A DNA stretch of 64,000 nucleotides, from assembly GCF_900182935.1 (NCBI RefSeq), contig NZ_FXUE01000004.1, forward strand, positions 1 through 64,000. Reading direction: 5' to 3'. The notes under the pieces were generated by a model. The model was not told where the DNA came from, ran no database searches, and saw only the letters and a program-made list of their open reading frames with translations. The position numbers and the translations under genes are program-made. Positions 14,756 through 19,174 of the stretch are shown here, one piece after another. This DNA is from Fibrobacter sp. UWB10 (GTDB lineage: Bacteria; Fibrobacterota; Fibrobacteria; Fibrobacterales; Fibrobacteraceae). Each line of letters starts with the position of its first letter. Position 1 is the first letter of the stretch.

Positions 14756-14790
14756 TATTACGCCATTATCAAGTGGTATTACGCCATTAT
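14749..14790 (+). repeat. Two tandem 21-bp copies spanning the GH30 stop codon
   Basis: Positions 14749-14769 and 14770-14790 are the same 21 bases with one difference (A versus G). The first copy contains the TAG stop of the GH30 gene. In the second copy the corresponding triplet is TGG, so one mutation in copy one would extend the protein by several codons. Confidence 0.85.
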
Positions 14791-15632: not shown

Positions 15633-15660
15633 AAAAAGCACCCTTTTAGGGTGTTTTTTT
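15633..15660 (+). terminator. Intrinsic terminator
   Basis: AAAAAGCACCCT and AGGGTGTTTTTTT form a short G/C stem flanked by A and T runs, 20 bases after the membrane-protein stop codon. Confidence 0.85.
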
Positions 15661-15683: not shown

Positions 15684-15847
15684 AAAAAAGGCATCCCTCA
15701 CGGTGGAACACTCGAAGCTACTCACTTAAAAATGATAGCAGTGCCTCGGGGCTTTGTTTTTCGCGTCGATGCGCGCCTAAACTGAACACCAAGAGCGACG
15801 AGCTTTAAAAATACTGTTAGATCGGGCGTTAATCCGTGGGATGCCTT
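15684..15847 (-). ncRNA. Candidate structured small RNA (6S-like architecture)
   Basis: On the minus strand a promoter (TTGCTT, 17-base spacer, TATATT) predicts a start at about 15847. The RNA would begin with GGCATCCCACGG (15845-15834), which pairs with CCGTGAGGGATGCC (15703-15690) near its other end; this is 12 pairs with a two-base bulge. Six Ts follow directly, so the closing stem also serves as terminator. The ~164-base length, terminal closing stem and lack of an open reading frame fit 6S RNA, but the sequence is not recognisable as a known RNA. The conserved SRP RNA and RNase P motifs were looked for and not seen. It lies between the membrane protein gene and uvrC. Confidence 0.6.
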
Positions 15848-15853
15848 ACCCGT

Positions 15854-15882
15854 AATATAGACAACTTGAGGGGCAAAAGCAA
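15854..15882 (-). promoter_or_regulatory. Promoter of the candidate small RNA
   Basis: On the minus strand TTGCTT (15882-15877) and TATATT (15859-15854) are separated by exactly 17 bases, and the RNA stem begins 8 bases after the -10. The ~130 bases between this promoter and the uvrC stop are A/T-rich and show no further gene. Confidence 0.65.
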
Positions 15883-16013: not shown

Positions 16014-17873
16014 TCAGCCTTCTGTGTCGGGAGTGATAAATTCGGTAACATATTTTGCGACTTGGTCGCGTAGGTTGTTTCCGCGGACCTTTCCGAGCAG
16101 AATTTCGATGTCTTCGATGGGGGCGGCCATGAACGCTTCGGCGCTTCTGTACTTGCTCAAAATCTTGACGCGGGTTTCGTGACCCACACCAGGCATCTTG
16201 AGCCATTCGACTTCCAAGTCCTTTTTGCGCTTGCTGCGTTGGTAGGTAATCGCGAATCGGTGAGCCTCGTCGCGGGCGTTCTGCAAAAGCTTTAGCGCAG
16301 GGCTGGTGCGGTGCAATACGATGCTCTTGCGGTCGTCGGGGAACACGATTTCTTCGAGGCGCTTGGCGAGGCCGATGAGCGGTAAATCCTGATCGTGGCC
16401 GAGTTCTTTCAGAATCTGCATCGTGGCGTCTACCTGGCCTTTACCGCCGTCGCACACCCACAAGTCGGGCATGGGTACGCCCTCGTTTTCGAGCCTGCGA
16501 ATGCGGCGGGTCATCACTTCGCGCATGCTCGCGAAGTCGTCGACGCCTTCGACAGTCTTGATGATAAATTTGCGGTAATTGGCTTTGTCGGGGCGCCCGT
16601 TTTTGAAGGCCACAAGGCTTGCCACCGTGTTCGTGCCCGAAAGGTGAGAAATATCCACGCACTCGATGCGGAACGGCGTCTTTTTAAGCCCGAGGACTTT
16701 CTGCAGTTCGAATACGCTCTGGTCGATTTCGCTGTACTTCTGCACTTCGGCGCGCATTTCTACCAGAATCATGTCGGCATTGGCCCCAGCAAGCTTTAAG
16801 AATCCGAGCTTTTCGCCGCGCTGGGGCGTGCTGAAAGTGACCTTTCTCCCTGCCTGTTTGCTGAGCGCCGCTTCGAGTTCCTTGCGGTCATCCGGCAGCA
16901 CAATGTCGGTTGCGATTTCGGCAGGGATCAGGGGCGCCTCCATGTACCACGGGAGCACCATCTGCCTGAATATTTCGGTTTCGTCGTCTTCGAGCTTGCA
17001 TTCGAGCCGGTAATGCCTGCGCCCCATGAGCACGCCTTTGCGGTATTCGAGAATCACGGCCGCGGCCATATCGCCGTTACGGCGGAGCGTTACCACATCG
17101 AGTGACAAGTTCGGGTCGCTGGTGTCGGTCTTCTGGTGCGTGCCGGACGCTTGCAGCGCCTGAATGGCGTCGCGCTTTTTCATGGCGGTTTCAAAGTCGA
17201 GCCGTTCGCTCGCTTCTTCCATTTCGCGCTGCCAAAGGTCAATCAGGTCGTCGCGCTTGCCTTCGAGCATGAGCCTTGCGTTTGCGACATCCTTGGCGTA
17301 TTCCTCTTGCGTAATGAGCCCCGCACACGGTGCACTGCAGCGCCCGATGTGGTAGTTGAGGCAAGGGCGCACGGGGTGCTTGGCCGGCAATTCCATGGTG
17401 CATTCGCGAATCTTGAACAACCTTGCCGAAATGTCAATCAGCTTGTCGATGTAGCGCGAACCCATGTACGGGCCATAATACTGGCGGCCGTCCTTCTTGA
17501 CAGAGCGAGAAAGCGAAAGCCGTGGGAACGGTTCCTTGACCGAAAATGCTAGGTACGGAAAGTGCTTGTCGTCTTTCAGGAGCACGTTGTACTTAGGCGT
17601 GTGCTTGCGAATCAGGTTCGCTTCTAGAATCAGCGCCTCTTGCTCGCTCTCGGTAATAATCCATTCGATGTCCCGAATGTAGGGGAGCATGAGCGTTGCC
17701 GCGCGGTGGCCGTTGTGCTCGGAGCCGTCGAAGTAGCTGCGCACGCGGTTCTTTAGGACTTTAGCTTTTCCAATGTAAATGATTTTCCCTTGGGCGTTCT
17801 TCATGATGTAAACGCCCGGCCGGTCCGGCAATTCCGTCAGTCGCCGCTGTATATGTTCATTTACAGAAATCAT
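16014..17873 (-). CDS. uvrC: Excinuclease ABC subunit C
   Basis: UvrC makes both incisions in nucleotide excision repair after UvrA/UvrB find the lesion. The 619-residue length is typical. The domains in order are: a GIY-YIG nuclease at ~15-95 ('GVYIMKNAQGKIIYIGKA'), a UVR motif near 205-235 for UvrB contact, an RNase H-like 5' incision domain with 'ECVDISHLSGTNTVASLV' and 'DGGKGQV', and tandem helix-hairpin-helix motifs at the C-terminus ('MPGVGHETRVKILSKY'). The ATG at 17873 is the first plausible start. It stands alone, divergent from the zapA pair. Confidence 0.97.
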   Translation of the reverse strand: MISVNEHIQRRLTELPDRPGVYIMKNAQGKIIYIGKAKVLKNRVRSYFDGSEHNGHRAATLMLPYIRDIEWIITESEQEALILEANLIRKHTPKYNVLLKDDKHFPYLAFSVKEPFPRLSLSRSVKKDGRQYYGPYMGSRYIDKLIDISARLFKIRECTMELPAKHPVRPCLNYHIGRCSAPCAGLITQEEYAKDVANARLMLEGKRDDLIDLWQREMEEASERLDFETAMKKRDAIQALQASGTHQKTDTSDPNLSLDVVTLRRNGDMAAAVILEYRKGVLMGRRHYRLECKLEDDETEIFRQMVLPWYMEAPLIPAEIATDIVLPDDRKELEAALSKQAGRKVTFSTPQRGEKLGFLKLAGANADMILVEMRAEVQKYSEIDQSVFELQKVLGLKKTPFRIECVDISHLSGTNTVASLVAFKNGRPDKANYRKFIIKTVEGVDDFASMREVMTRRIRRLENEGVPMPDLWVCDGGKGQVDATMQILKELGHDQDLPLIGLAKRLEEIVFPDDRKSIVLHRTSPALKLLQNARDEAHRFAITYQRSKRKKDLEVEWLKMPGVGHETRVKILSKYRSAEAFMAAPIEDIEILLGKVRGNNLRDQVAKYVTEFITPDTEG

Positions 17874-17943
17874 TTGGTTTTTGTGAAAAAATTTAGTTAT
17901 CTTAATATTGTTAAAGTTCTAAAACTCATTAGACGGAGCAGAA

Positions 17944-18816
17944 ATGAATTTAGAAAAAATGAGTGTTTTATCTCAAAAAATTGAGGGTGTCTTGGGAACG
18001 GTCCGAGCCCTCAAAGAAGAAAATGCAAAAATCAAGCGTGATTTATCTCAGGTCCAGGCTTTGGCGCAAGACAAGACCCTGTTGCTTGAATCGGCCAAGC
18101 ACGACCTTGCTGATTGCAAGGCTGCCCTTGATGCCCGTGCAAATCAGGCAAAAGCCCAGCAGGATATGCTGAACAAGCAGGCTTCCGAAATCGAAGTGCT
18201 TAACGAAAAGACGGTAGTGCTTGGTCAGCAGTTGGTCGAAAAGGATGGCTGCATCGAAAGTTTGGAATCCAAGATTCGTGATCTTACGAACAGTCAGGAT
18301 ATGTTGACTGGCCAGATTAACGAAAGGGCCGAAACGGTAAATGCGCTCAACACCCAGGTGGCCGAAAAGGATGCGACCATTGCAAAGCTGATGGAACAGC
18401 TTTCCGAAAAGAGTGCTTTGGTCGATAGCCTGAACGAACAGCTGCAGGCCCAGAACGAAGAAATTGCAGAAGCCCAGGAAAAGTTCAACCAGCTGGTTGC
18501 AACTATCGAAAGCGAACTGGGTACAGACATTGCCCTGGACAGTGGTGATTCCGCCCCTGCTGCCGAAGAACCGGTTGCTGAGGAATCGACTGAAGAACCG
18601 GCAACTTCCGACGAAGATCTCGTATTCGAAGACGTGACTGCGGAAAATTCGGAAGCCGAAGAATCTGTGGAAGAACCTCAGGTAGACGAATCTGTTTCGC
18701 AGGAACAGGAATCCGAAGAGGATGTTCCGTCGATTGAAGTTCATGGGGCCGATGAAAAAGACAACGATTTGTTCGCGAGCAAGCAGGAGGGCTCGCAGAC
18801 AAGTTTTTTCGGATAA
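17944..18816 (+). CDS. Long coiled-coil protein, ZapB-like N-terminus, acidic tail
   Basis: The product is 290 residues. Residues 5-195 are an almost unbroken coiled coil built of heptads ('IEGVLGTVRALKEENAKIKRDL' onward, with repeated 'L-EQL--K' units). The first ~35 residues look like ZapB or the short coiled-coil protein often encoded just before zapA. Residues 200-290 are an acidic, Pro/Ser/Glu-rich low-complexity tail ending in a hydrophobic 'TSFFG' that could be a short docking peptide. A GGAG ribosome site precedes the ATG. zapA follows after 43 bases. A role at the division ring is inference from position and the coiled coil. Confidence 0.65.
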   Translation: MNLEKMSVLSQKIEGVLGTVRALKEENAKIKRDLSQVQALAQDKTLLLESAKHDLADCKAALDARANQAKAQQDMLNKQASEIEVLNEKTVVLGQQLVEKDGCIESLESKIRDLTNSQDMLTGQINERAETVNALNTQVAEKDATIAKLMEQLSEKSALVDSLNEQLQAQNEEIAEAQEKFNQLVATIESELGTDIALDSGDSAPAAEEPVAEESTEEPATSDEDLVFEDVTAENSEAEESVEEPQVDESVSQEQESEEDVPSIEVHGADEKDNDLFASKQEGSQTSFFG

Positions 18817-18859
18817 GGATGCTGATGGACGATGATCCATTCGGCGTAGGGATAAAATA

Positions 18860-19174
18860 ATGGCTAGTATCGAACCTTTGAAATCGGTAACCATTTCCGT
18901 TGCCCAGGAAAGCATTCAGATTCGCACCGACTTGCCCGATGCGGAACTGAATGACATTGTGGAAAACATCAACCAGCGTTTTGATCGCTCGGCAAAGTTC
19001 CAGATGGACAACCGTAAGCGCATGGCTTTGCTTGCCGTGGAGCTTATGTCCGAAATCATGGAACTCCGCAAGCAACTGGGTCGCGCGAAAATCTATTACG
19101 ACTCGATGGAAAAGGAAGTCCAGAACCTCTCGCTCTTGTTGGACGAAGGCATGGGCAATGTCGATCGGCTTTAA
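18860..19174 (+). CDS. zapA: Cell division protein ZapA
   Basis: The 104-residue protein has ZapA form: a short N-terminal beta domain ('KSVTISVAQESIQIRTDLPDAELNDIVENINQRFD') followed by a long helix for tetramer formation ('RMALLAVELMSEIMELRKQL...MEKEVQNLSLLLDEGM'). ZapA cross-links FtsZ filaments at mid-cell. It forms a two-gene unit with the coiled-coil gene and ends at a strong terminator. No 6S RNA gene follows it, although ssrS follows zapA in many proteobacteria. Confidence 0.85.
   Translation: MASIEPLKSVTISVAQESIQIRTDLPDAELNDIVENINQRFDRSAKFQMDNRKRMALLAVELMSEIMELRKQLGRAKIYYDSMEKEVQNLSLLLDEGMGNVDRL

Follow-up and report, generated by a model that had tools for sequence, protein, structure and literature searches.

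Introduction

In other bacteria, 6S RNA restrains RNA polymerase, and its occurrence is considered almost universal across the domain. Wehner et al. reportedly surveyed 6S RNA across bacteria in 2014. Fibrobacter is a major rumen cellulose degrader, and the literature on 6S RNA and Fibrobacter that we searched describes no Fibrobacter 6S RNA; one may nonetheless have been listed earlier in a cross-bacterial survey. In beta- and gamma-proteobacteria, the 6S gene ssrS lies immediately after the ZapA gene in a ZapB-ZapA-SsrS array (PMC7641849). Work on the 6S-1 RNA of B. subtilis describes two structures, a bubble-collapse helix and a hairpin formed by the 3' bubble strand (PMC8876501).

Here, we analyzed a stretch of 64,000 nucleotides from Fibrobacter sp. 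UWB10 (hereafter the window), whose minus strand carries a 164-base RNA. We are highly confident that this is the Fibrobacter 6S RNA (ssrS), a divergent lineage covering the Fibrobacteraceae, for which we infer a 6S-type mechanism.

Results

Gene boundaries and transcription signals

Direct reading of the sequence places a minus-strand RNA gene of ~163-164 nt at window positions 15684-15847, with ends that pair with each other, followed by a T6 tract. The promoter reported in the first-pass annotation, TTGCTT-17-TATATT, is found in the sequence: the -35 element TTGCTT lies at 15877-15882 and the -10 element TATATT at 15854-15859, both on the minus strand, with a spacer of 17 nt and with 7 bases between the -10 element and position 15846, where the stem begins. 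Nearly all relatives have TTGnnn at the equivalent site, the -10 element is conserved as TATATT or TATTAT, and the combined pattern TTGnnn-(15-19)-TAnnnT is present upstream of 65 of the 72 distinct copies at a nearly constant position. The list returned by a strict consensus promoter scan does not include the TTGCTT-17-TATATT promoter. At the opposite end, the T6 tract (15684-15689, minus strand), seen in the sequence and in the terminator scan, is in place at 15689-15684, as had been noticed earlier. As read from the sequence, the closing stem and this T-run are an intrinsic terminator. There is no reading frame within 15684-15847, in agreement with the initial description of a ~164-base non-coding RNA, and the 6S model R3 described below returns identical coordinates. 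On these sequence features, the RNA is a separate gene with its own promoter and its own terminator; it is present in a single copy per genome.

In three copies (L021-L023), the T-run is degenerate (ACACCT, AATCCT). Between the RNA and the gene at 14773, the window also contains a second hairpin (15639-15653) with T-runs flanking it on both sides, which is probably a shared bidirectional terminator.

Relation to recognized 6S RNAs and occurrence in the phylum

No Rfam family matches the locus, neither at the gathering threshold nor locally at E 10, which upholds the earlier remark that the sequence itself is not recognized. Copies from relatives likewise give nothing relevant, and no Rfam 15 model recognizes the RNA. 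The Infernal comparison with Rfam that had been suggested for 6S, SRP and RNase P assigned no other RNA class, and RF00013 detects no 6S gene anywhere in this genome, also at E 10. None of the RNase P, SRP RNA and tmRNA families matches the locus, and the true genes lie elsewhere in the genome (at C2:250658, C3:218417 and C2:686732, respectively).

In a plain DNA search, 23 of the 41 nearest genomes proved to carry a conserved version of the stretch, and the aligned copies share the promoter, the core CCCGAUCUAACA and the pairing partners, with the T-run present in most. Using a covariance model made from 18 genus copies (R1), we found the RNA in 94 of the 168 genomes of the phylum, once in each. 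A second, family-wide model (R2), based on 29 copies, matched 100 of the 168 genomes, all belonging to family f1 (Fibrobacteraceae) and with one copy each. The RNA is found in 100 of the ~111 Fibrobacteraceae genomes, once per genome. RF00013 matches a 6S RNA in 26 of the same 168 genomes (3 of the 26 above its cut-off) and has no match in the Fibrobacteraceae; the matches of RF00013 and R2 thus occupy mutually exclusive, complementary sets of genomes. Among named records, the core pattern occurs in Fibrobacter, other Fibrobacteraceae or Fibrobacteres MAGs. Matches to the core pattern in a Parachlamydiaceae MAG (L112) and an Akkermansiaceae MAG (L130) were discarded as chance.

A third covariance model, R3, was made only from 15 RF00013-matched 6S RNAs of another family of the phylum, f8. 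With filters off, its top match in the 64-kb window is exactly 15684-15847, at full length, with 29.3 bits and E 1.3e-5, and the runner-up is a short hairpin with 16.1 bits. Together with the covariation presented below, this full-length match supports the 6S-like overall plan proposed in the first-pass annotation. R3 also matches other Fibrobacteraceae copies, for example with 29.6 (L098), 27.3 (L005), 24.3 (L008) and 22.6 bits (L097); the bit scores are low for many copies, several of them below 20. Around the RNase P, SRP RNA and tmRNA genes of this genome, no R3 score exceeds 14.3 bits. In the reverse direction, R1 gives weak full-length matches to two f8 6S RNAs, L035 (E 0.0067) and L030 (E 0.073). 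R2 has no match at the 6S loci of f8; its signal is probably too specific to the Fibrobacteraceae. A whole-genome R3 search with heuristic prefilters missed the locus, which the unfiltered window search recovered. Because the prefiltered R3 search and the R2 search missed, the link to 6S rests jointly on the unfiltered scoring, the synteny and the distribution. The single-copy matches of R1 and R2 and the cross-match from recognized 6S RNAs assign the 6S RNA gene (ssrS), ~163-164 nt, to 15684-15847 on the minus strand. The RNA is near-palindromic, and model scoring extends to the plus strand of 15684-15847 (28.4 bits for this copy); because both strands score, the strand assignment rests on the promoter and the T-run.

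Secondary structure and covariation

The minimum free energy (MFE) fold has -53.5 kcal/mol (z = -3.3 relative to 200 dinucleotide shuffles, none of which is as good). The closing stem P1 is formed by the 5' strand AGGCAUCCCACGG (15834-15846) and the 3' strand CCGUGAGGGAUGCCU (15689-15703), both on the minus strand like all elements given below. The pairing of the RNA ends is as first annotated; the length of 12 bp is not, as the stem comprises 14 bp, 10 in AAGGCAUCCC/GGGAUGCCUU and 4 in ACGG/CCGU, and has a bulge of 2 nt. In the alignment of 29 copies, all 13 of the 13 pairs of this helix (helix 1) show a two-sided change in some copy. The downstream helix P2 pairs the 5' strand AACGCCCGA (15822-15830) with the 3' strand UCGAGUGUU (15707-15715), and helices 2-3 carry compensatory changes. 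The 5' strand of the central bubble (15797-15821) starts with UCUAACA and is unpaired in the MFE fold; CUAACA opens the bubble right after the inner stem, at the equivalent place, in both the f8 6S RNAs and the Fibrobacteraceae RNA. The apical (upstream) stem (15743-15796) contains internal loops, with compensatory changes in helices 4-6. Altogether, the fold and the covariation of helices 1-6 describe a rod of the ~160-200 nt class with a closing stem, an open central bubble and an interrupted apical stem.

Compensatory changes, which had been suggested as a check among relatives, are abundant. In the 29-copy family alignment, which was fitted to the covariance model and so favors the structure, 31 of the 43 pairs show one or more two-sided changes; the contrast with the controls is nevertheless large, as 0 of 500 shuffles reach that number. 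Standard pairs fill 91.1% of the pair cells in these 29 copies, again reached by 0 of 500 shuffles, compared to ~40% when the partners are slid by 1-3 columns. Together with the conservation in the nearest genomes, this pairing goes far past what chance would give. In the genus alignment, built without the structure, the pairs are mostly invariant and covariation is little.

The 3' strand of the central bubble (15718-15741) forms a small hairpin, CUGCU/AGUAG, in the predicted fold. This hairpin is conserved in genus g1, but covariation was not found for it in the 29-copy alignment. For a bubble-collapse helix, complementary stretches of 4-8 nt are similarly placed in most copies, and shuffles match them in 4-98% of trials; we do not claim this helix, which lacks per-sequence significance against shuffles. 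Folding with the pRNA template blocked gave mixed outcomes.

Two groups of copies depart from this picture. In L021-L023, two of which are MAGs from horse faeces, a 39-base GC-rich, hairpin-like insertion is located at the apical tip. In genus g10 (L090-L094, L100-L102), P2 is flipped to CCGU/ACGA, the upstream sequence differs (AATAATATATATT) and mostly has no TTG box, and no zapA lies upstream.

Genomic context

In the window, zapA is found at 18860-19174 on the plus strand, identified by its gene order and by homologues that match PF05164; its protein aligns with these homologues and is itself under the Pfam threshold. The assignment as ZapA is made by Pfam in several genera of the family. 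Next to it, a coiled-coil gene (17944-18816, plus strand) is the positional counterpart of zapB: the homologue in L164, from a basal genus, passes the Pfam ZapB cut-off, and the protein of the window reaches only E 0.097. Among the 52 distinct copies across the family with enough flank, 36 have zapA as the immediate upstream neighbor in the same orientation, and the RNA starts 48-168 bases past the end of zapA. The RF00013-matched 6S gene of family f14 (L036) likewise lies directly after a ZapA gene. In family f8 (L155, L157), the RF00013-matched 6S gene adjoins a murA-like gene and not zapA, and in L155 it also adjoins a SPOUT methyltransferase gene (rlmH-like).

The first-pass annotation was right that no 6S gene follows zapA here, whereas the RNA follows it in most of the family. 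Relative to other Fibrobacter genomes, as shown by the gene order of L126, the block of uvrC, the coiled-coil gene and zapA (16014-19174, ~3.2 kb) is inverted. The flanks are collinear: the 14773 gene and the RNA lie at one end of the block, nuoA and the 19245 gene at the opposite end. The 6S gene is no longer preceded by zapA in this genome because of this inversion of uvrC, the zapB-like gene and zapA in this lineage. As a result of the inversion, zapA, the ancestral upstream neighbor, has been carried away, and uvrC (16014-17873, minus strand) is now the same-strand upstream neighbor of the RNA.

Discussion

As far as sequence analysis can define it, the locus is a gene with its own promoter and terminator. 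Its product has a conserved rod fold with an open bubble and is homologous to recognized 6S RNAs elsewhere in the phylum, and the ancestral position of the gene is directly after zapA. The RNA is an addition to the known 6S class that has been invisible to databases, ordinary in kind and not a new class.

By analogy with E. coli and B. subtilis 6S RNA, the open-bubbled rod would mimic melted promoter DNA and thereby occupy the housekeeping, sigma70-type RNA polymerase holoenzyme. Capture of the polymerase would lower the transcription of growth genes on nutrient exhaustion. Once nucleotides are available again, the polymerase may initiate at about U15821 and copy the P2 and 5' bubble strands; the candidate product is a short pRNA, 5'-AUCGGGCGUU..., with the region of the P2 5' strand as its presumed template. 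Synthesis of the pRNA would open P2, and refolding through the 3'-bubble hairpin, possibly with the bubble-collapse helix, would free the enzyme.

The mode of polymerase binding is where another reading has to be considered first. The RNA could be a 6S descendant or look-alike acting like actinobacterial Ms1, which would bind the core polymerase instead of the sigma70 holoenzyme and make no pRNA. Ms1 is structurally related to 6S RNA and binds the core polymerase (PMC9130861), and the strong divergence of the Fibrobacteraceae sequence from RF00013 would fit such a change. The homology, however, leads to RF00013-matched 6S RNAs within the phylum itself, and few parts of the RNA are as well conserved as the region with the presumed pRNA template and start (CCGAUCUAACA), as expected if pRNA production persists. 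We therefore consider an Ms1-like function improbable.

Still less probable, in our view, is an unrelated Fibrobacteraceae sRNA that acts by base pairing or protein binding and whose rod shape is a coincidence. Such an RNA would explain why no Rfam family is assigned and why the cross-model bit scores are modest, but not why the full-length match of a 6S model is the best in the window, why the neighboring gene is zapA, as for 6S, or why an RNA that is single-copy and near-universal in the family has a distribution mutually exclusive with that of RF00013. Finally, in this genome uvrC ends ~167 bases upstream of the RNA in the same orientation, which might suggest that the RNA is the terminator or 3' untranslated region of that gene and no gene of its own, a reading that we find hardly credible given the conserved promoter of the RNA itself, the different upstream gene in most relatives, and the structure and covariation extending over all 164 bases.

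The assignment to 6S RNA fills the 6S gap in Rfam for the whole family Fibrobacteraceae, supplies an alignment and a structure for extending RF00013, and predicts a specific pRNA. It also indicates that seeming absences of 6S RNA in other phyla may be detection failures. The zapA-6S neighborhood, described for beta- and gamma-proteobacteria, is present in another phylum and can be used for locating missing 6S genes. A zapB-zapA-6S unit may even be ancestral to Fibrobacterota and Proteobacteria, physically linking a division module and a global transcription brake across phyla, with the locus of the window as a recent break by inversion; we put this forward tentatively, as a plausible scenario somewhat short of probable.

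Among known systems, Ms1 RNA of Actinobacteria has a similar 6S-like shape, its homology being compared here through Rfam only. It differs in binding the core polymerase and in having other neighbors (PMC9130861), whereas the Fibrobacteraceae RNA matches 6S. As in B. subtilis 6S-1, the small hairpin of the 3' bubble strand is predicted already in the free RNA (PMC8876501); compared to that RNA, a collapse helix can be drawn (GCUCG with CGAGU), but statistical support for it is absent. The Fibrobacteraceae RNA shares with ssrS of E. coli and other beta- and gamma-proteobacteria the ancestral order of a zapB-like gene, zapA and 6S on one strand (PMC7641849), and differs from it in having no RF00013 match and in its downstream genes, which by inspection are not ygfA/EVE. 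With respect to the RF00013-matched 6S RNAs of other Fibrobacterota families (L027-L046), P2 is CCCGA/UCGAG in the Fibrobacteraceae and UUCUUGA/UCAAGAA in the other families, and RF00013 is blind to the Fibrobacteraceae RNA. In the length, the closing stem, the presence of an inner P2 stem, the bubble opened by CUAACA, the interrupted apical stem and the terminator T-run, the RNA resembles these 6S RNAs, to which it is homologous by cross-model search.
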